From Luteolibacter ambystomatis (lineage in GTDB: Bacteria > Verrucomicrobiota > Verrucomicrobiia > Verrucomicrobiales > Akkermansiaceae): a stretch of 64,000 nt of DNA. The stretch lies in contig NZ_CP073100.1 of NCBI RefSeq assembly GCF_018137965.1, forward strand, positions 1,364,001 to 1,428,000, given 5' to 3'. Shown piece by piece: positions 30,259 to 40,069 of the stretch (the first letter of the stretch is position 1; each line of letters starts with the position of its first letter). The notes beneath the pieces are model-generated. The model ran no database searches. It saw only the letters and a program-made list of their open reading frames with translations, and was not told the DNA's origin. The position numbers were made by a program, and so were the translations under genes.

Positions 30259-31044
30259 CTACTTCGGCAGATGCTCGGAGCAGTATTCCTGGCCATCGCT
30301 GCCGATGCGGAATTCAAGCTCGGGCTTGTGATGCTCGGTCCGCTGGCACACGGAGCATTGGTGGAATGCATCCTCTTCCGGCAACTGCCGCCGTTTGAAA
30401 TCACGGGCGCGCTGCGCGGACCTCGCCACGCGGGCCTGTCCTTTCAGGGCGGGGATGCCAGCCCACAGCAGGTAGTTCGACACCGCGAACAGATAGAGAG
30501 GAAATGCGACGAAATTCTGGAGAGCGGTTAGAAACAAGGCGACCCCCAACACGATGGCGATGATCCGCACCTCCACCGGGAATATGAACATGAGGCGGAA
30601 TTCGAATTTCGGGAACAAGGTGGCGAAGGCGAAAAAGGCGGTGAGATACAAGGTGATGGTGCTGCCGACCAGCGGTGTGCCGTGGATGAAATTGGCCGCG
30701 ATCAGGGAGAGGATTCCGGTGTAGTAGAAGATCGAGGTGCTGAAACTGCCCCATGCTTCCTCCAGGCTGTCGCTGATCAGGAAGGTGATCACTAGCAGGA
30801 AGAACGCGAACACCGCCGCCATGGGAGTGAATCCGGTCTGGGCGGATGAGGCGAAAAGAAAGGTGACGGCTCTCCAAGCCTCTCCCGCGAAGATTTTCGA
30901 CCGGTCGAACTCCAACAATGCACCGAGATCCGGCCGCACGAATTGCAGCGCGAATGCAAGCGCGTGGAGAATCGCGTAGAAGCGGAGGAAATGCGGGAAT
31001 GCCATCCACCCGCACTTGCGTTCAATTTTCGAAAGCCATCCCAT
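30259..31044 (-). CDS. Polytopic membrane protein, rhomboid-like, with C-terminal zinc-ribbon-like tail
   Basis: 261 residues. About six hydrophobic helices ('LRFYAILHALAFALQFV', 'GFTPMAAVFAFFLLVITFLI', 'FYYTGILSLIAANFI', 'TITLYLTAFFAFATLFP', 'IAIVLGVALFLTALQNFV', 'FPLYLFAVSNYLLWAGI') recall rhomboid fold proteins, but the GxSG serine and catalytic His are absent. The soluble end has 'CSVCQRTEHH' and 'EYCSEHLPK', a probable Cys/His metal site. It is divergent from gcvT by 66 bp. Confidence 0.7.
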   Translation of the reverse strand: MGWLSKIERKCGWMAFPHFLRFYAILHALAFALQFVRPDLGALLEFDRSKIFAGEAWRAVTFLFASSAQTGFTPMAAVFAFFLLVITFLISDSLEEAWGSFSTSIFYYTGILSLIAANFIHGTPLVGSTITLYLTAFFAFATLFPKFEFRLMFIFPVEVRIIAIVLGVALFLTALQNFVAFPLYLFAVSNYLLWAGIPALKGQARVARSAQRARDFKRRQLPEEDAFHQCSVCQRTEHHKPELEFRIGSDGQEYCSEHLPK

Positions 31045-31110
31045 ACGGCGGGAAGGATTGCCGGTTCCGGCCGGTTGACAAGAGCGGGGTGGGGGAGCAG
31101 TCTCCCGCGC

Positions 31111-32196
31111 GTGTCCGATTTGTTGAAACGTAGTCCCTTGGAAGCCGCCCACATTGAGCTGGGTGGGAAGCTCGTGCCCTTTGCCGGCTGGAACATGCCG
31201 GTGCAGTACACCGCGATCCTTGATGAGCACTCCGCCGTCCGCACCAAGGCCGGGGTGTTCGATATCTCCCACATGGGCCAGTTCCTGGTTTCGGGAGAAG
31301 GTTCGCTGGAGTGGCTGAACAAGATGCTCGCCAACAACGTGGCCAAGCTCGGCATCGGCGAAGGCCAGTATACCTTTCTTCTGAACGGCCACGGCGGCGT
31401 GATCGATGACCTCATCATCTACCGCACCGGTGAAAACGATTTCTTCCTGGTGGTGAATGCCTCGATGATCGAAGAGGATTTCGCGTGGTTTGCGAAGCAT
31501 CAGCCGGAGTCCATCGAACTGCGCAACGAGAGCGAACTGTGGGCTGGCATGGCCGTGCAGGGACCGGAATCTTCCGCTGTCTTTGCCGTGGTCTGCCCTG
31601 GCGAAACCCTGCCGCCACGCAACGGCATTTCCAAGACCTCCACCGGCTCGATCGTCTGCCGTACCGGCTACACCGGTGAGGACGGCTTCGAGTTCTTCAG
31701 CCCGGCGGAAGAAGGTGGCGAGTGGCTCAAGAAGTTCGTCGCCGCCGGAGCGAAGCCCTGCGGCCTCGGCTGCCGCGACAGCCTGCGCCTGGAGATGTGC
31801 TATCCGCTCAATGGAAACGACCTCGCTCCGGACCGCACGCCGATCGAGGCGGGCCTTGGATTCTTCGTGGACCTGGACAAGGGCGACTTCATCGGTCGAG
31901 AGACCCTCGCGAAGCAGAAGGCGGAAGGCCCGGCCGTGAAGCTGGTGGCCCTCCAATACACCGACAAGGGCGCGCCGCCGCGTGCACACTACGCCGTGTT
32001 CTCACCGGAAGGTGAAGCCCTCGGCGAACTCTCCAGCGGGGTGCATTCTCCCAGCCTCGGAACCGGCATCGGACTTGCTTATTTGCCCTCCGCGTGGACT
32101 AAGATCGGGACGGAAGTCCGCATCGACGTCCGGGGGCGCCAGTTCCCCGCGAAAGTCGTGAAGAAACCGTTTTACAAGCCCGCCGCGAAAGCCTGA
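31111..32196 (+). CDS. gcvT: Glycine cleavage system aminomethyltransferase (T protein)
   Basis: 361 residues from GTG 31111: 'LGGKLVPFAGWNMPVQYTAIL' holds the folate-binding start, then 'VFDISHMGQFLVSG', 'ICRTGYTGEDGFEFF'-type segment, and 'GCRDSLRLEMCYPLNGNDL'. T protein transfers the methylene carbon to tetrahydrofolate and releases ammonia. The GTG start matches the conserved N terminus; longer frames upstream run into the divergent gene. It is the first gene of gcvT-gcvH-gcvP. Confidence 0.95.
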   Translation: MSDLLKRSPLEAAHIELGGKLVPFAGWNMPVQYTAILDEHSAVRTKAGVFDISHMGQFLVSGEGSLEWLNKMLANNVAKLGIGEGQYTFLLNGHGGVIDDLIIYRTGENDFFLVVNASMIEEDFAWFAKHQPESIELRNESELWAGMAVQGPESSAVFAVVCPGETLPPRNGISKTSTGSIVCRTGYTGEDGFEFFSPAEEGGEWLKKFVAAGAKPCGLGCRDSLRLEMCYPLNGNDLAPDRTPIEAGLGFFVDLDKGDFIGRETLAKQKAEGPAVKLVALQYTDKGAPPRAHYAVFSPEGEALGELSSGVHSPSLGTGIGLAYLPSAWTKIGTEVRIDVRGRQFPAKVVKKPFYKPAAKA

Positions 32197-32220
32197 CATC
32201 ACCCCGTTCCTGCTTTGTTT

Positions 32221-32598
32221 ATGAACGTTCCATCAGACCTCCGTTTCAATACCTCCCACGAATGGGTCCGCCTTGAGGGCGACATCGCCACCGTGGGTAT
32301 CTCCGACCACGCCCAGGAAGAGCTGACCGACGTCGTGTTCGTCGAGCTTCCCGCCGTGGGCCGCGCTGTCGATGCCGGCGACCCGACCGCCGTGGTCGAG
32401 TCCGTGAAGGCAGCCAGCGACATCTACGCCCCGATCGGCGGCGAGGTGGTTGAGGTGAATCCGGAAGTCGAGGCCAACCCGGCCCTCGTGAACACCGATC
32501 CCTATGGCGCGGGCTGGATCTTCAAGCTCCGCGTGAAGAACACCGCCGACGTCGAGTCCCTCCTGACTCCGGAAGGTTACATCGCCCAGATCAGCTGA
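32221..32598 (+). CDS. gcvH: Glycine cleavage system H protein
   Basis: 125 residues: 'LRFNTSHEWVRLEGDIATVGI', 'LTDVVFVELPAVG', and 'AVVESVKAASDIYAP' with the lipoylated Lys. 'WIFKLRVKN' precedes the C terminus. It shuttles the aminomethyl arm between P, T and L proteins. The ATG at 32221 lies 24 bp after gcvT. Confidence 0.97.
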   Translation: MNVPSDLRFNTSHEWVRLEGDIATVGISDHAQEELTDVVFVELPAVGRAVDAGDPTAVVESVKAASDIYAPIGGEVVEVNPEVEANPALVNTDPYGAGWIFKLRVKNTADVESLLTPEGYIAQIS

Positions 32599-32629
32599 TC
32601 CCAAGGTCCTCCGAACATTCCCTGCTTTT

Positions 32630-32663
32630 GCGAAGGCGCTCCGCTTCTCCGGCGCGCCTTCGC
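32630..32663 (+). promoter_or_regulatory. Hairpin between gcvH and gcvP (attenuator-like)
   Basis: GCGAAGGCGC (32630-32639) and GCGCCTTCGC (32654-32663) form a perfect 10-bp stem with a 14-nt loop. Pyrimidine-rich sequence with short T runs follows before the gcvP ATG at 32689. This could lower readthrough or stabilise the gcvTH message. No folding calculation was possible. Confidence 0.5.
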
Positions 32664-32688
32664 CCTTTCCATTTTACCCTTTTGCACC

Positions 32689-35523
32689 ATGTCCGCTCGT
32701 CTTGACTTCCTCAGCCGCCACCTCGGTCCCGTCGGCACCGAACGCGATGAAATGCTCGCCACCGTTGGCTTTGCTTCTCTCGAAGCCCTCACCGACGCCG
32801 CTGTTCCGGCAGGCATCCGCCTGACCGCTCCGCTGGATCTTCCGCCCGCGCGTTCCGAGCAGGAGGCGCTTGCCTGGCTGAAGTCCATCTTCTCGAAGAA
32901 CAAGGTCCTCAAGTCCTTCATCGGCCAGGGCTACTACGGCACCCACGTGCCGAACGTGATCGGCCGCAACATCCTGGAGAATCCGGGCTGGTACACCGCC
33001 TACACGCCGTATCAGGCGGAGATCGCACAGGGGCGCCTGGAGGCGCTGCTGAACTTCCAGACGATGATCACCGATCTCACCGCGCTGGACGTTTCCAATG
33101 CCTCGCTGCTGGATGAAGGCACCGCTGCCGCCGAGGCGATGAGCCTGGCACTGTCCGCCAAGCCGAAGGGACGCGCGATGTTCGTGTCGGACCGCTGCCA
33201 TCCGCAGACGATCGACGTGGTGCAGACCCGCGCCGAGCCGCTGGGCATCGAGATCATCGTCGGCGATTGGGAGAAGTTCGATCCGGCCTCCGTGCCGAAC
33301 CTTTTCGCCGTGCTGGTCCAGTATCCGGACACTCGTGGCCGGATCGATGACTTCACCGGTTTCTTCGAAACCGCGAAGGCTGCTGGAGCGGTGACCATCG
33401 TGGCTGCGGACATTCTCGCTCTTACCGTGCTCAAGGCGCCGGGTGAATTCGGCGCGGACATCTGCGTCGGTTGCAGCCAGCGCTTCGGCGTGCCGATGGG
33501 TTTCGGTGGTCCGCACGCGGGCTTCATGGCCTGCAAGGACGAGCTGAAGCGCAAGATGCCGGGCCGCTTGATCGGCGTGTCCATCGATTCCCGTGGCAAG
33601 CCCGGCTACCGCCTCTCGCTCCAGACCCGGGAGCAGCACATCCGCCGCGACAAGGCGACCTCCAACATCTGCACCGCCCAGGTGCTCCTCGCGGTGATGG
33701 CTTCCATGTATGCCGTGTATCACGGTCCGGAAGGCCTCAAGCACATCGCCCGCACCGTCCACAGCCGCACCGTCCAACTCAAGAAGTTGCTGGAAAACGT
33801 CGGCATCGAGACCGAGTCCGGCGCGTTCTTTGACACGCTGGTGGTGAAGGTCCCGGGCAAGGCCTCCGAGGTCCACGAAGGTGCCCGCCGCGCCGGTGTC
33901 AACTTGCGTGAGATCGATGCCGACCACGTCGGCGTGTCATTCGATGAAACCACCACGGAAGGAGACGTGCTCGTCGTCCTCTCCGCTTTCGGTGGAGCAG
34001 GGGAGCTGCCGATTGTCAGCGGTCCTGCCTGGCCGTCCGGTCTTTCCCGCACGTCCGATTTTCTCACGCAGGCCGCCTTCAACCGCTTCCACTCGGAGAC
34101 AGAGATGCTGCGCTACATGAAGCGTCTCGAGTCCCGCGACCTCGCTCTGAACGAGTCGATGATCGCGCTGGGCTCCTGCACGATGAAGCTGAACGCCACC
34201 GCGGAGATGATGCCGCTGAGCTGGCCGGAGGTTTCCTCGATCCACCCCTTCGTCCCGGCCGATCAGAGCCAAGGCTATCGCGAGATGCTCGTGACGCTCG
34301 AGGGTTGGCTCGCGAACATCACCGGCTTTGCCGCCGTGTCGCTCCAGCCGAACGCTGGCTCGCAGGGTGAATACGCCGGTCTGCTGGCGATCCGCCGCTA
34401 CCACCTCGCCAATGGCGATGCCCACCGCAACGTCTGCCTCATTCCCGTTTCCGCGCACGGTACCAACCCGGCGTCCGCCGTGATGGTCGGCATGAAGGTC
34501 GTGGGCGTGAAGTGCGATGAGAAGGGTAACATCGACATGCCCGACCTCGCCGCCCGCATTGAGGAGCACAAGGACAACCTTGCCGCGCTGATGGTGACCT
34601 ACCCGTCCACCCACGGCGTGTTCGAGGAAACGATCGTTTCCATCTGCGAGCAGATCCACGCCGCCGGTGGCCAGGTTTACATGGACGGCGCGAACATGAA
34701 CGCCCAGGTCGGTCTGACCAGCCCGGGCCGGATCGGTGCGGACGTCTGCCATCTGAACCTCCACAAGACCTTCTGCATCCCGCACGGCGGTGGTGGTCCG
34801 GGTGTCGGCCCGATTGGCGTGGCTCCGCAGCTCGTCCCGTATCTACCGGGACACGGCGAGCTGCCGGGTACCAGCGGCACCGTCTGCTCCGCTCCATGGG
34901 GCAGCGCTTCGATCAACACCATCTCATGGATGTACATCGCCATGATGGGCGCGGCAGGCCTCACCCAGGCCACCGGCACCGCCATCCTGAATGCGAACTA
35001 CACCGCCAAGCGCCTCGCGCCGTTCTTCCCGATTCTCTACACCGCGCCGAACGGCCTGGTGGCCCACGAGTGCATCATCGACGTCCGTCCGCTCAGCGAC
35101 AAGAGCGGTATCACCGTCGAGGATGTGGCGAAGCGCCTCATGGACTACGGTTTCCACGCTCCGACCATGAGTTGGCCGGTGGGTGGCACGCTCATGATCG
35201 AGCCGACCGAGTCCGAGGCCCGGGTGGAGATCGACCGCTTCTGCGACTCCATGATCGCCATCCACGGCGAGATCATGGCGGTGATCAATGGTGAGTCCGA
35301 TGCCTCCGACAACCCGCTCAAGAACGCTCCGCATACCGCGGACATGGTCTGCGGCGACAAGTGGGAGCACTCCTACACCCGCGAGCAGGCGGCTTATCCG
35401 CTGCCGGTGCTCCGCAATCACAAGTTCTGGCCGTTCGTGGGCCGCGTGGACAACGTCCATGGCGATCGCAACCTGGTCTGCACCTGTGACACGGTGGAGG
35501 CCTACGCCGCCGCGAGCGCCTGA
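32689..35523 (+). CDS. gcvP: Glycine dehydrogenase (decarboxylating), P protein, fused form
   Basis: 944 residues, the single-chain form. The N-terminal half has '[40 protein letters not shown]'. The C-terminal half has the PLP site '[22 protein letters not shown]' (Lys in HK). It decarboxylates glycine and loads the aminomethyl group on GcvH. A strong terminator follows. Confidence 0.97.
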
Positions 35524-36235: not shown

Positions 36236-36574
36236 TTAGAGAGACTTCTTGAGGGCCTCGAACTGGGCCTGAAGCTTGCCGAGTTCCTTCTCGGTCTTCT
36301 CGATTTGCGAGGCCAGGTTGGCCAGCTTTGCAAGCTTGGAACTGATGCCGCCCTTCGCACCGCCGTTGCCCTTGGCAACAGGGCCGGAACCGATTCCCGA
36401 CTTCAGCCAGCTCGAGATGGTGAGCTGGGAAATCTTGTATTTCTTGGCGGCGGCACTCTGGCCGCCACGGCCCTTTTCGGCGTTCACCTTGTCGACGAAC
36501 GCGAGGATCTCGCTCTTCTCCTTGTCAGTGTAACGCTTGCCCTTGGCTGCGTTGACGTTGGTGTTGGTGCTCAT
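36236..36574 (-). CDS. Small basic protein with HTH_29-like helix-turn-helix and coiled coil
   Basis: 112 residues. 'GKRYTDKEKSEILAFVDKVN' and 'QSAAAKKYKISQLTISSWLK' (residues about 13-58) form a transposase OrfA-type helix-turn-helix. A Gly-rich linker follows (60-78) and then a leucine/lysine coiled coil ('LAKLANLASQIEKTEKELGKLQAQFEALKKSL'). No transposase catalytic domain or IS ends are nearby, so this looks like a domesticated DNA-binding protein, perhaps a small chromosomal regulator or nucleoid protein. Confidence 0.7.
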   Translation of the reverse strand: MSTNTNVNAAKGKRYTDKEKSEILAFVDKVNAEKGRGGQSAAAKKYKISQLTISSWLKSGIGSGPVAKGNGGAKGGISSKLAKLANLASQIEKTEKELGKLQAQFEALKKSL

Positions 36575-36678: not shown

Positions 36679-37791
36679 TCAGATTCTATCAGTCGCAAAA
36701 TCGGACATTTTTTCGATCCAGAGATCAGACCCATTCATTACCAGTGGTCTGCGAACTACGCCGCCGAACCCGATGAACAGATCGACGTCCGGTTTGGTCT
36801 CCAAATCGGACACGCCATCGCCCATCATGACGACCTTGTTAGGGCGGAGCGCGGCCTTCCATTCCCGGATGATCTCATTTTTACCACCATTGCGGGTCGT
36901 TGGATAATCACTGCCGTATCCTGCATAGCGACCTTCAGGATCGAGGTGGAGGGGGACCGCCTCAACGTGATCGATGCCCAATTCCCGTGCCAGCGGCTCG
37001 ATCAGGGGGGCGAAGCCACCCGAGAGGATGATCAGAGTCCAGCCATCCGCCTTGAGGCGCTCCACCAGTTCGCGCACCCCGGGAGTGATGGTTTCGATAT
37101 AGAGGCTGGCCACGGCTTCACAGGTTTCGAGGTCCGGCTGGATGATCTCCATGCGGCGCGGGAAGACATCGGTAAGAGGAATCTCACCATTCATGGCGGC
37201 ATGGGTCAGGGCCACGACGTCCTGATACACTTTCTCGCCACGGACGCGGGCGAGTTCGTCGATGCCCTCGATGGTGGAGAGGGTGGAGTCGCAGTCGAAG
37301 AAGAACAATTTGCCGCGATGGTTGGAGGGCGGCGTGATTGTCATCGGAACACCGGGTTCTACGAGGTCGAAAAGCTCGATGACATCGGCGTTTCCCATGC
37401 GGATGCAACCGTGGCTGTTCGGCTGGCCCAGCAGATCCTCGCGGTTGGTGCCGTGGATGTAGATGTAACGGTCGTAGGAATTCGCGTTCTCCGGATCGAG
37501 GCCGGAGATCCGCAGGATGCGGGTGAGGATCAGATCGTCACAGGTGGGCGGGCTGTCTGTGGTCCACACGCCTTGCGGTTCGCGTGCCTTGAAGATGGTG
37601 CCGGTCGGCGCATCGGCTCCAATCTTATCGGTAATCTTGAAGTTACCGGTCGGGGTGCGGAAGCTGCCGGGTTGGAATCCCACGCCTTTGGTGGCGGTGG
37701 AAATGATATAGGTGCGGACAATATCCGTGCCCCGAAAGACACGCATTTGCTGGTCATCGACGGAAACCTCAAGTCGCAGATCAGTGCTCAT
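36679..37791 (-). CDS. L,D-transpeptidase (YkuD) fused to HAD phosphatase (SerB-like)
   Basis: 370 residues with two catalytic domains in one frame. Residues 1-155 are a YkuD L,D-transpeptidase: 'YIYIHGTNREDLLGQPNSHGCIRMG' with His113 and Cys129. Residues about 160-370 are a HAD-superfamily phosphatase: motif I 'FFFDCDSTLS' (Asp166, Asp168), motif II 'LIILSGG' (Ser257), Lys304 and motif IV 'MMGDGVSDLE' (about 323-331). The phosphatase half is phosphoserine-phosphatase-like. No signal peptide is visible, which is odd for a transpeptidase that acts on peptidoglycan. The ATG overlaps the ketosynthase stop by 4 bp. Confidence 0.88.
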   Translation of the reverse strand: MSTDLRLEVSVDDQQMRVFRGTDIVRTYIISTATKGVGFQPGSFRTPTGNFKITDKIGADAPTGTIFKAREPQGVWTTDSPPTCDDLILTRILRISGLDPENANSYDRYIYIHGTNREDLLGQPNSHGCIRMGNADVIELFDLVEPGVPMTITPPSNHRGKLFFFDCDSTLSTIEGIDELARVRGEKVYQDVVALTHAAMNGEIPLTDVFPRRMEIIQPDLETCEAVASLYIETITPGVRELVERLKADGWTLIILSGGFAPLIEPLARELGIDHVEAVPLHLDPEGRYAGYGSDYPTTRNGGKNEIIREWKAALRPNKVVMMGDGVSDLETKPDVDLFIGFGGVVRRPLVMNGSDLWIEKMSDFATDRI

Positions 37792-38954
37792 GGTGGAGAT
37801 AGGACAAGGAGGGCGTTGTGGCCGCCCATGCTGTGGGAGAGTTTGAAGACCGTACCGTCGGCGTCCAGTGCCGTATCTGGAGCGATGAAGTCAGGCGGGG
37901 TGGCCAGGCCGCGGGGATTGGGCGGAAGTTTTTTCTGCTGGAGAAAAGCGGCGAGGATGGCGGTTTCCAACAGCCCGCTGGCCCCGATGGTGTGGCCGGT
38001 GAAGGGCTTCAGGAAATGAAGGGTGGGAAGATGAGTGCTTTCAAAGGCACGTATCAGTGCGGCGGGCTCGGCGACTGCATGGACTGCCGTGCCGGTGGCG
38101 TGGGGACAGAGCGCGGCGGGGTCTCCGTGGCGCCCGCGGGCGGCGATGAGTAGATCGCCGCTGCCGCCGCCGTCCTTCGGGATGCCGATGGGATCGCAGG
38201 CATCCGAGTTGGCCGTGTAGTCCAGGATCCATGGCGTCCCGGAGCGGGTGGCGTCGATGGCAATCGCGGCGGCTCCTTCTCCCGGAATGAAACCGGCGGA
38301 GGAGGGATGGTAAGGGTCCACCTGTGGAGCCGAGGCCAGCAGCCCGGAGGCGGCATAGCTGTCCAACAGCAGGGGGACCAGAGGCAGATCCACGGCCACA
38401 GCCAGCGCACGCGGGACCACTCCGCTGCGGACCAGCAAGGTGGCGATGCCGAGGGCGTCAAGGCCTGCCGAGCAACCGCTGGCCAGCACATGATAAGGGC
38501 CGTGAATGCCGAGCTCGATGGTGATGGCGGCGGCGGGTTCGCTGTGGATGGTGTTGCTCGCCGCCATGAGTTTGAAGGGGCGGCGACCGGGCCACGGAGA
38601 GAGCCATCCGGCGGCATTGCCCCGGCTGGTGCCAACGACCACGGCGGCGGGGCGGCAATCTTCCGGAGTCCATCCGGCGGCGGCGATGGCTTGGCGGGCG
38701 ACATGGAGTGCAGCCATCGAGGCGGGACTCCACTTGCGGTGGGTCAGGAGTTCCCGTTGCTCGATCCAACCGGCGGGAGTGGCGGCATGGGGACTGCCCG
38801 CTCCGAGAAGACCGGACAGCGGACGGAATGCCGGTGAATTCCGCGAGATCGCATCGAGATGAGCCGCCGGGCCGTCGCCCAGCGTGGAAAGCATCCCGAG
38901 TCCGGTGATGGAAAGCGGTCGTTCGATGCGCCCGGCGTAAACGCTGGGCGGCAT
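37788..38954 (-). CDS. Beta-ketoacyl-acyl carrier protein synthase-like protein (lone ketosynthase)
   Basis: 388 residues, KAS-type thiolase fold: 'ASGCSAGLDALG' has the nucleophilic Cys161, and His285 ('CPHATGTAVHA') and His321 ('LKPFTGHTIGASGLLE') complete the Cys-His-His triad. 'GFIPGEGAAAIAID' is the usual KAS gatekeeping segment. It is shorter than FabF (about 410), and no acyl carrier protein, malonyl transferase or dehydratase gene is adjacent. It is downstream of bioB by 95 bp and translationally coupled to the transpeptidase-phosphatase gene, so its product pathway is unclear. Confidence 0.85.
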   Translation of the reverse strand: MPPSVYAGRIERPLSITGLGMLSTLGDGPAAHLDAISRNSPAFRPLSGLLGAGSPHAATPAGWIEQRELLTHRKWSPASMAALHVARQAIAAAGWTPEDCRPAAVVVGTSRGNAAGWLSPWPGRRPFKLMAASNTIHSEPAAAITIELGIHGPYHVLASGCSAGLDALGIATLLVRSGVVPRALAVAVDLPLVPLLLDSYAASGLLASAPQVDPYHPSSAGFIPGEGAAAIAIDATRSGTPWILDYTANSDACDPIGIPKDGGGSGDLLIAARGRHGDPAALCPHATGTAVHAVAEPAALIRAFESTHLPTLHFLKPFTGHTIGASGLLETAILAAFLQQKKLPPNPRGLATPPDFIAPDTALDADGTVFKLSHSMGGHNALLVLSPP

Positions 38955-39049
38955 CGTGTCAATTGGACCATGGTAGCGCGAGGCTCCTGCCTTGCGTGCG
39001 GGGAAGAGCCCTTTCTTCCAACGACCATCCCTTTTCCGCAAATGCCCTC

Positions 39050-40069
39050 TCAGCAGCAACCGCAATGGCTGCCGGTTTCGCAGGCCGGGGACAGAGGCTG
39101 CTCGGGATCGGCTTCCGGAGCGGTCAGCGCCGGATTCGGAGCGAGGGTGCCGAGGCCCAGCTTGGAAAGCAGCGCACGGTCCTTTTCCACCGCCGGGTTC
39201 TTCGCAGTGAGGAGCTTGTCTCCGTAGAAGATCGAGTTGGCACCGGCAAAGAAGCACAAGGCCTGGGCTTCGTCGGAGAGACGGGTGCGACCCGCGGACA
39301 GGCGGACCTTTGCCTTCGGAATGGCGATGCGGGTGACGGCGATCATGCGGGCCAGGTCGAGCGGATCGACCTGCGGATTCTCCGCGAGCGGAGTGCCGGG
39401 CATTGGCATCAGCGAATTGATCGGCACGCTCTCGGGCTGCGGATTGAAGCTGGAAATGACCTCCAGCATTTTCAGACGGTCGTCGATGGTTTCACCGAGG
39501 CCGAGGATGCCTCCGCAACACACCGACATGCCGGCCTTCTGCACGTTCGAGATCGTGCGCAGGCGGTCCTCGTAGGTATGGGTGGTGACGATGTTCGGGT
39601 AATGCTCCGGCGAGGTGTCGAGATTGTGGTTGTAGGCGGTGACGCCGGCTTCCTTCAGGGCCACGGCTTCGTCGGGACCGAGTTCGCCGAGGGTCACGCA
39701 GACCTCCATGCCGAGCGAGGAGACATCGCGGACGATGTCGAGCACCTGTTCGAAACGCTGCGTGCCACCGCGGACACCGCGCCAGGCGGCACCCATGCAG
39801 AAGCGGGTGGAGCCGGTTTCACGGGCGGCGCGGGCGCGCTCCATGATGGTGTCCTTGCTCATCAGGCGCTCGATTTCGATGCCCGAGTTGTAACGGGCGG
39901 ACTGGGCGCAGTAGGAACAGTCCTCCGAGCAGCCGCCGGTCTTGATGGAAAGCAGGGTGCAAAGCTGGACCTCCGATTCCGGCCAGTTCGCCTCATGAAC
40001 GGCGCGGCTCTGCTTGAGCAGTTCGAAAAACGGGAGGGAGTGGAGACGCTTGAGCTCGGAGAATGTCAT
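39050..40069 (-). CDS. bioB: Biotin synthase
   Basis: 339 residues, radical SAM: 'SIKTGGCSEDCSYCAQSARYN' carries the CxxxCxxC cluster motif, and 'FCMGAAWRGVRGG', 'YNHNLDTSPEHYPNIVTTHTYEDR', 'GGILGLGETIDDR' and the Arg-containing 'RLSAGRTRLSDEAQALCFFAGANSIFYG' site for the auxiliary [2Fe-2S] cluster are all family-typical. The C-terminal tail (about 30 residues, ending GSHCGCC) is an extra Cys-rich extension. It inserts sulfur into dethiobiotin. No other bio genes are in the window. Confidence 0.96.
   Translation of the reverse strand: MTFSELKRLHSLPFFELLKQSRAVHEANWPESEVQLCTLLSIKTGGCSEDCSYCAQSARYNSGIEIERLMSKDTIMERARAARETGSTRFCMGAAWRGVRGGTQRFEQVLDIVRDVSSLGMEVCVTLGELGPDEAVALKEAGVTAYNHNLDTSPEHYPNIVTTHTYEDRLRTISNVQKAGMSVCCGGILGLGETIDDRLKMLEVISSFNPQPESVPINSLMPMPGTPLAENPQVDPLDLARMIAVTRIAIPKAKVRLSAGRTRLSDEAQALCFFAGANSIFYGDKLLTAKNPAVEKDRALLSKLGLGTLAPNPALTAPEADPEQPLSPACETGSHCGCC

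Follow-up and report, generated by a model that had tools for sequence, protein, structure and literature searches.

Among described YkuD-domain proteins, ElsL of Acinetobacter baumannii is leaderless and is reported to act in murein recycling as a cytosolic L,D-carboxypeptidase, with orthologues reported from all orders of Verrucomicrobia (PMC8649774). The survey behind that report dropped sequences longer than 200 amino acids (PMC8649774), and fusions such as the one described here would therefore have been invisible to it. On the side of serine metabolism, one paper describes SerK as forming phosphoserine from serine and ADP (PMC5120207), and a gut-microbiome reconstruction reports 450 genomes of diverse Firmicutes that have SerA and SerC while lacking each of four types of phosphoserine phosphatase (PMC9026213). 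Searches of the limited PMC collection returned nothing relevant on YkuD together with phosphoserine phosphatase or haloacid dehalogenase, and nothing linking DUF1015, a family that enters the argument below, with phosphoserine phosphatase or serine kinase; a search on DUF1015 by itself also gave nothing to the point, and the one paper naming YkuD and haloacid dehalogenase together is, to judge by its title, a catalogue of protein release.

Here we propose a concrete role for a puzzling gene in which a YkuD domain and a HAD phosphatase domain share one frame, located in a 64-kb stretch of DNA (the window). We give a probability of roughly two in three to the reading that its product is a cytosolic fusion of two neighbours, an ElsL-type L,D-carboxypeptidase and a phosphoserine phosphatase, which probably act independently.

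Results

The features of the locus are collected in Table 1. Within the 370-residue protein, Pfam recognizes YkuD at residues 6-152 (E 2.5e-20) and HAD at residues 164-331 (E 1.8e-15). An earlier note on this DNA had claimed a one-frame fusion with complete catalytic sets of both families, and the seven residues that it named (His113, Cys129, Asp166, Asp168, Ser257, Lys304 and Asp325) are all where it placed them, along with Thr170, Glu175, Arg213 and Asp329. The start codon of the fusion gene (37791-37789) overlaps the stop codon of the beta-ketoacyl synthase (KAS)-like gene (37790-37788), an overlap that speaks for this start and against a longer, leader-bearing protein. The KAS-like gene, which was seen at 62 of 69 scanned genus loci (contig ends cut some of these), probably starts nearer 38950 than the ORF start, because its family match begins only at about residue 114 of the ORF. 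For the small downstream gene, a longer relative in L032 has matches to HTH models of the Brinker and transposase types. The glycine cleavage genes gcvT, gcvH and gcvP, as read from their translations, lie near the fusion gene on the opposite strand (window positions 30943-35523) with a NUDIX gene in between, and a gcvP-like sequence is also close by in G067 and G262.

Table 1. Features at and around the fusion gene, in window coordinates.
Feature	Position	Strand	Description	Basis
YkuD-HAD fusion gene	36679..37791	-	370 aa, ATG start	ORF and Pfam
YkuD domain, residues 1-156	37324..37791	-	leaderless, His113 and Cys129, ElsL-like	Pfam, NCBIfam, hydropathy, tree
HAD-IB phosphatase domain, residues 157-370 and stop	36679..37323	-	human-PSPH-like	Pfam, NCBIfam, PDB sequence match, fold
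Beta-ketoacyl synthase (KAS)-like gene	37788..39257	-	directly upstream of fusion gene, ATGA overlap	
bioB	39050..40069	-	upstream, same direction as fusion gene	
Small gene	36236..36574	-	downstream of fusion gene	no Pfam match of its own

The fusion was followed through a genus set of 73 genomes, source genome included, in which a copy was called intact when nine checked HAD residues were kept. YkuD and an intact HAD domain lie in one frame in 50 of the 73 genomes, including G011, where the contig starts inside YkuD and the YkuD start is therefore missing. Three further genomes complete the class of 53 that we call intact or cut but visibly intact: G010, with a frame break close to the HAD end, and G057, with a copy cut by the contig end, both keep every visible checked residue, and G024 retains the final third of HAD at a contig start, where the fusion itself is not visible. 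In G016 and G023 the HAD domain has decayed without losing the fusion, and in G067 a remnant of it is left. YkuD occurs without HAD in 10 of the 73 genomes, G007 has HAD without YkuD within its short locus, and a close YkuD (E 1e-36) was not found in six of the 73. Outside the genus, the same fusion is present in a second genus (G262) and in five MAG contigs (L033-L037), four of them labelled Akkermansiaceae, whose species may overlap with those of the genome set. The search for the same fusion in other genomes that the earlier note had called for thus finds it repeatedly, and this recurrence of intact copies rules out the sequencing or frame artefact against which that note had cautioned. A triple fusion of YkuD, HAD and HTH, 518-551 amino acids long, occurs in G045 (L137), G053 (L095) and G063 (L102), where the counterpart of the small downstream gene has been added to the HAD end. 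In G032, a genome sampled at the level of the order, a separate HAD gene is preceded, at a distance of about 0.4 kb, by a distant YkuD-family ORF (L027:480-1094, 204 aa, 27 bits).

In a third genus of the family (G318, locus L158), bioB, ykuD, HAD and HTH follow one another as four separate genes; bioB and ykuD share an ATGA overlap, and the HAD gene starts 4 nt past the ykuD stop. There, as in L039 and L041, bioB directly precedes ykuD. Two adjacent genes that lose the intervening stop would yield a single two-domain protein, and on the simplest reading the fusion consists of joined neighbours, and the KAS-like gene came to separate ykuD from bioB in the fused lineages; the fusion event presumably ran in this direction.

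For the HAD half, the best NCBIfam model is TIGR00338 (serB), at 114.8 bits and below its cut-off of 144.15, which none of the 73 genus genomes passes. The best PDB sequence match is human PSPH (E 1.1e-34), and the HAD part of the AlphaFold model of the fusion protein (mean pLDDT 90, pTM 0.85) matches the PSPH fold with a target TM of 0.83 and 36% identity. The catalytic set (DxDST, Ser, Lys, DxxxD) is complete, with Asp166, Asp168, Thr170, Ser257, Lys304, Asp325 and Asp329 in place. Glu175 and Arg213 align with Glu29 and Arg65, which we take to be the serine-binding pair of human PSPH, and both are conserved in 53 of the 56 aligned rows covering those columns, the exceptions being the decayed G016, G023 and G067. 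Searches of the source genome located no SerB-like HAD besides the fused domain; two weaker TIGR00338 matches fall in frames of 1070 and 640 codons. SerA is present there at 602 bits. SerC was not located by a TIGR01364 search of the source genome, and no aminotransferase is evident beside SerA; L150, a TIGR01364 match, was set aside as a SerC candidate, its sequence reading as PhnW-like. Family models, residues and modelled fold make a phosphoserine phosphatase the most likely identity of the HAD half. Phosphoserine was one of two substrates that had earlier been named for assay.

The YkuD half was judged for a leader by hydropathy rather than by SignalP. Its first 60 residues contain nothing strongly hydrophobic (best 19-residue Kyte-Doolittle mean 0.45), in keeping with the signal peptide already reported missing, and without a hydrophobic N-terminus a secreted transpeptidase is not the favoured reading. 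The source genome has a second YkuD protein (L002, G000:C1:3395953-3396378), 42% identical to the fused domain, with a lipoprotein-like leader (Kyte-Doolittle mean 1.54). The best NCBIfam model for the fused YkuD is ElsL (NF040925) at 99.8 bits, far below the cut-off of 270, and the best transpeptidase model reaches 22.7 bits. The secreted paralogue L002, at 105 bits, scores slightly above the fused domain against the ElsL model, and the score was therefore dropped as proof of orthology. A tree built from 52 chosen loci places the fused domains in one clade (0.996) with the unfused Verrucomicrobiota YkuDs L039, L040, L041 and L158; the proteobacterial ElsL-like proteins group instead with the secreted paralogues (0.78). 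The fused protein has a YkuD domain with the catalytic Cys, no leader, and no peptidoglycan-binding domain that we could find; its YkuD part of about 156 residues matches B. subtilis YkuD in the AlphaFold model with a target TM of 0.59, and its whole length of 370 amino acids falls outside the 105-200 range of the ElsL survey. Surveys filtered by length in this manner miss fused ElsL-like proteins.

Another candidate source of carboxypeptidase activity, the S66 (LdcA) family, was found in 6 of the 73 genus genomes, divided into three of the six without a close YkuD and three of the 67 others, the latter including two in which no YkuD was visible, G007 and the contig-cut G024. The source genome belongs to the 67 and carries its S66 peptidase outside the window (G000:C1:476174-476536). 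Because of this peptidase, YkuD may not be the only carboxypeptidase of the source genome, and we do not claim it as the sole possible one. The S66 pattern fits a carboxypeptidase role in most relatives and leaves the case of the source genome open. For the YkuD half the probable identity is an L,D-carboxypeptidase like ElsL, acting in murein recycling in the cytosol, an assignment weaker than that of the HAD half.

Two families are distributed across the genus in relation to the HAD domain, namely ThrH (E <= 1e-6; 8 of 73 genomes) and DUF1015 (E <= 1e-15; 15 of 73). None of the 53 genomes whose HAD domain is intact, or cut but visibly intact, has either family, and 16 of the 20 others have at least one (Fisher p 9e-13, a value that overstates the case because the genomes are related); with strict copies only, the counts are 0 of 50 and 16 of 23. 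The decayed or remnant copies of G016, G023 and G067 are each accompanied by both ThrH and DUF1015. The four of those 20 with neither ThrH nor DUF1015 are G007, which has its own separate HAD, G020 (59% complete), and G052 (98% complete) and G076 (92%), which lack an intact HAD as well and whose loci L119-L121 hold YkuD without HAD. Under parsimony on a tree of KAS and YkuD with 62 tips (G067 absent), intact HAD changes five times, as four losses and an apparent regain (G083), DUF1015 six times and ThrH three times; DUF1015 arises on three of the four HAD-loss branches and inside the fourth, on a tree with weak nodes at 0.29 (G006 and G061), 0.55 (G014 with G052 and G076) and 0.80 (the G083 group). 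In G006 (L124), G018 (L161) and G055 (L113) the order KAS-YkuD-DUF1015-HTH places DUF1015, in two distinct types, in the exact slot of HAD, and in G067 it lies just upstream of YkuD. In other lineages, then, the phosphatase half seems to have been swapped for an unrelated DUF1015 protein.

Across the phylum, in a sample of 240 genomes at least 90% complete (the genus members G000 and G065 included), a SerB-like HAD scoring 90-144 bits occurs in 20 genomes, of which one (G098) has DUF1015, a family present in 182 of the 240 overall. The SerB-like match of G098 lies in a 461-aa frame with a glycosyltransferase-like start and is unmatched by the window's HAD at E 1e-4. DUF1015 also occurs in four of nine genomes with an over-cut-off SerB and in 23 of 26 with weaker HAD matches. 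Of three control genomes that carry DUF1015, two (Bacteroides ihuae and Methanosarcina acetivorans) likewise have an over-cut-off SerB, and the exclusion is therefore not universal.

By sequence, DUF1015 searched against the PDB gave no match or two chance-level matches, and SerK was not reached. Its AlphaFold model (pLDDT 86, pTM 0.83) was matched by Foldseek to SerK, a Pyrococcus relative (1vk1) and SbnI, as nine chains with probability 1.00 and target TM 0.53-0.60. Compared with the model, those nine chains gave Z 12.3-14.1 over 212-225 residues at rmsd 3.8-5.6, and the next chain, sulfiredoxin, gave Z 5.6. The modelled DUF1015 thus resembles free serine kinases, a likeness of fold that is no proof of activity.

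Discussion

In the reading that we prefer, the N-terminal YkuD domain would remove D-Ala from the tetrapeptides of imported cell-wall fragments, as an L,D-carboxypeptidase of the ElsL type, and the C-terminal HAD domain would be the phosphoserine phosphatase of the cell, converting O-phosphoserine to L-serine in the last step of serine synthesis. Both domains would be made together and would probably work independently in the cytosol.

The genus-level exclusion makes DUF1015 a candidate stand-in for SerB, with its modelled fold as the guide to what it may do. A SerK-type reaction run in reverse would do the job of SerB; alternatively, DUF1015 may be a kinase ill-suited to stand beside a phosphatase. 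The latter possibility would explain the exclusion as avoidance of an ATP-burning futile cycle between kinase and phosphatase rather than as replacement, and it agrees both with the likeness of the model to free serine kinases and with the direction of the described enzyme, from serine to phosphoserine (PMC5120207). However, seven genus genomes pair DUF1015 with ThrH, which has a phosphoserine phosphatase annotation of its own, and four genomes of the phylum sample have DUF1015 alongside an over-cut-off SerB, and we regard a futile cycle as rather unlikely. Under replacement and futile cycle alike, the fused HAD domain is tied to phosphoserine. More doubtful still is the full form of the replacement argument, namely that DUF1015 (PF06245), with its serine-kinase fold, performs the last serine step where SerB is absent and that the fusion and the use of its slot record a selected coupling of recycling to phosphoserine.

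A functional link between the halves is possible, given that a phosphoserine-related gene is repeatedly found beside YkuD. Murein recycling could be tied to serine synthesis, for example by D-Ala or serine acting across the domains, and two observations point that way: the pair adjoins unfused in L158 and is fused in at least 50 of the 73 genus genomes, and DUF1015, serine-kinase-like in its model, fills the HAD position next to YkuD in G006, G018 and G055 and in G067 is found immediately upstream of YkuD. Yet the heritable position in an operon would account for this re-use of the slot, and YkuD stands alone in 10 of the 73 genomes and beside a decayed HAD in three. Among 14 genomes sampled at the level of the order, a HAD match of 211-244 bits occurs in six, never adjoining a close YkuD match (E under 1e-30): the two are on different contigs in five and more than 200 kb apart in G029, and only distant YkuD matches come near HAD, in G032 (0.4 kb) and G033 (2.9 kb). 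Such coupling is, in our judgement, improbable. Because YkuD stays where HAD decays or disappears, the halves are separable, and the simplest account is that two independent cytosolic enzymes are co-expressed. The proposal in the earlier note of a role in cytosolic muropeptide recycling accordingly stands for the YkuD half, which is leaderless and has a precedent in ElsL (PMC8649774), and does not extend to a pathway shared with HAD, for which the persistence of YkuD without it removes the need.

That note had further offered an anhydro-phosphosugar or a lipid-linked precursor as the substrate of the HAD half, a suggestion that we do not follow: the domain is of the HAD-IB type and nearest to phosphoserine phosphatases in family models, residues and fold, and its absence is accompanied by ThrH or DUF1015. 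That it hydrolyses some other phosphomonoester, of cell-wall recycling or glycerol metabolism, is very improbable, for although HAD phosphatases are often promiscuous and a PSPH-like HAD forms part of a glycerol-3-phosphate dehydrogenase chain (6iuy), Glu175 and Arg213 are lost only in the three decayed copies and the intact domain excludes ThrH and DUF1015 in the genus.

With phosphoserine as the most likely substrate, the natural gene replacement in this genus doubles as a test case for DUF1015. The family is a candidate that may be tested for serine-pathway gaps such as that described for the 450 Firmicutes genomes (PMC9026213).

Compared with known systems, the fused YkuD shares with ElsL a leaderless domain with a catalytic Cys and no peptidoglycan-binding domain found, and differs from it in being fused to a phosphatase, in the length of 370 amino acids and in a score below the NCBIfam cut-off. 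With human-type PSPH and bacterial SerB the HAD half shares the HAD-IB motifs, the aligned serine-binding Glu and Arg and the fold, whereas here it is placed behind a YkuD domain, scores below the TIGR00338 cut-off and has a predicted activity. The nearest parallel in architecture is DsGPDH of Dunaliella salina (6iuy), in which a PSPH-like HAD likewise shares one chain with an unrelated catalytic domain. In that protein the partner is a dehydrogenase, not YkuD, and the HAD half presumably serves the dehydrogenase's product.
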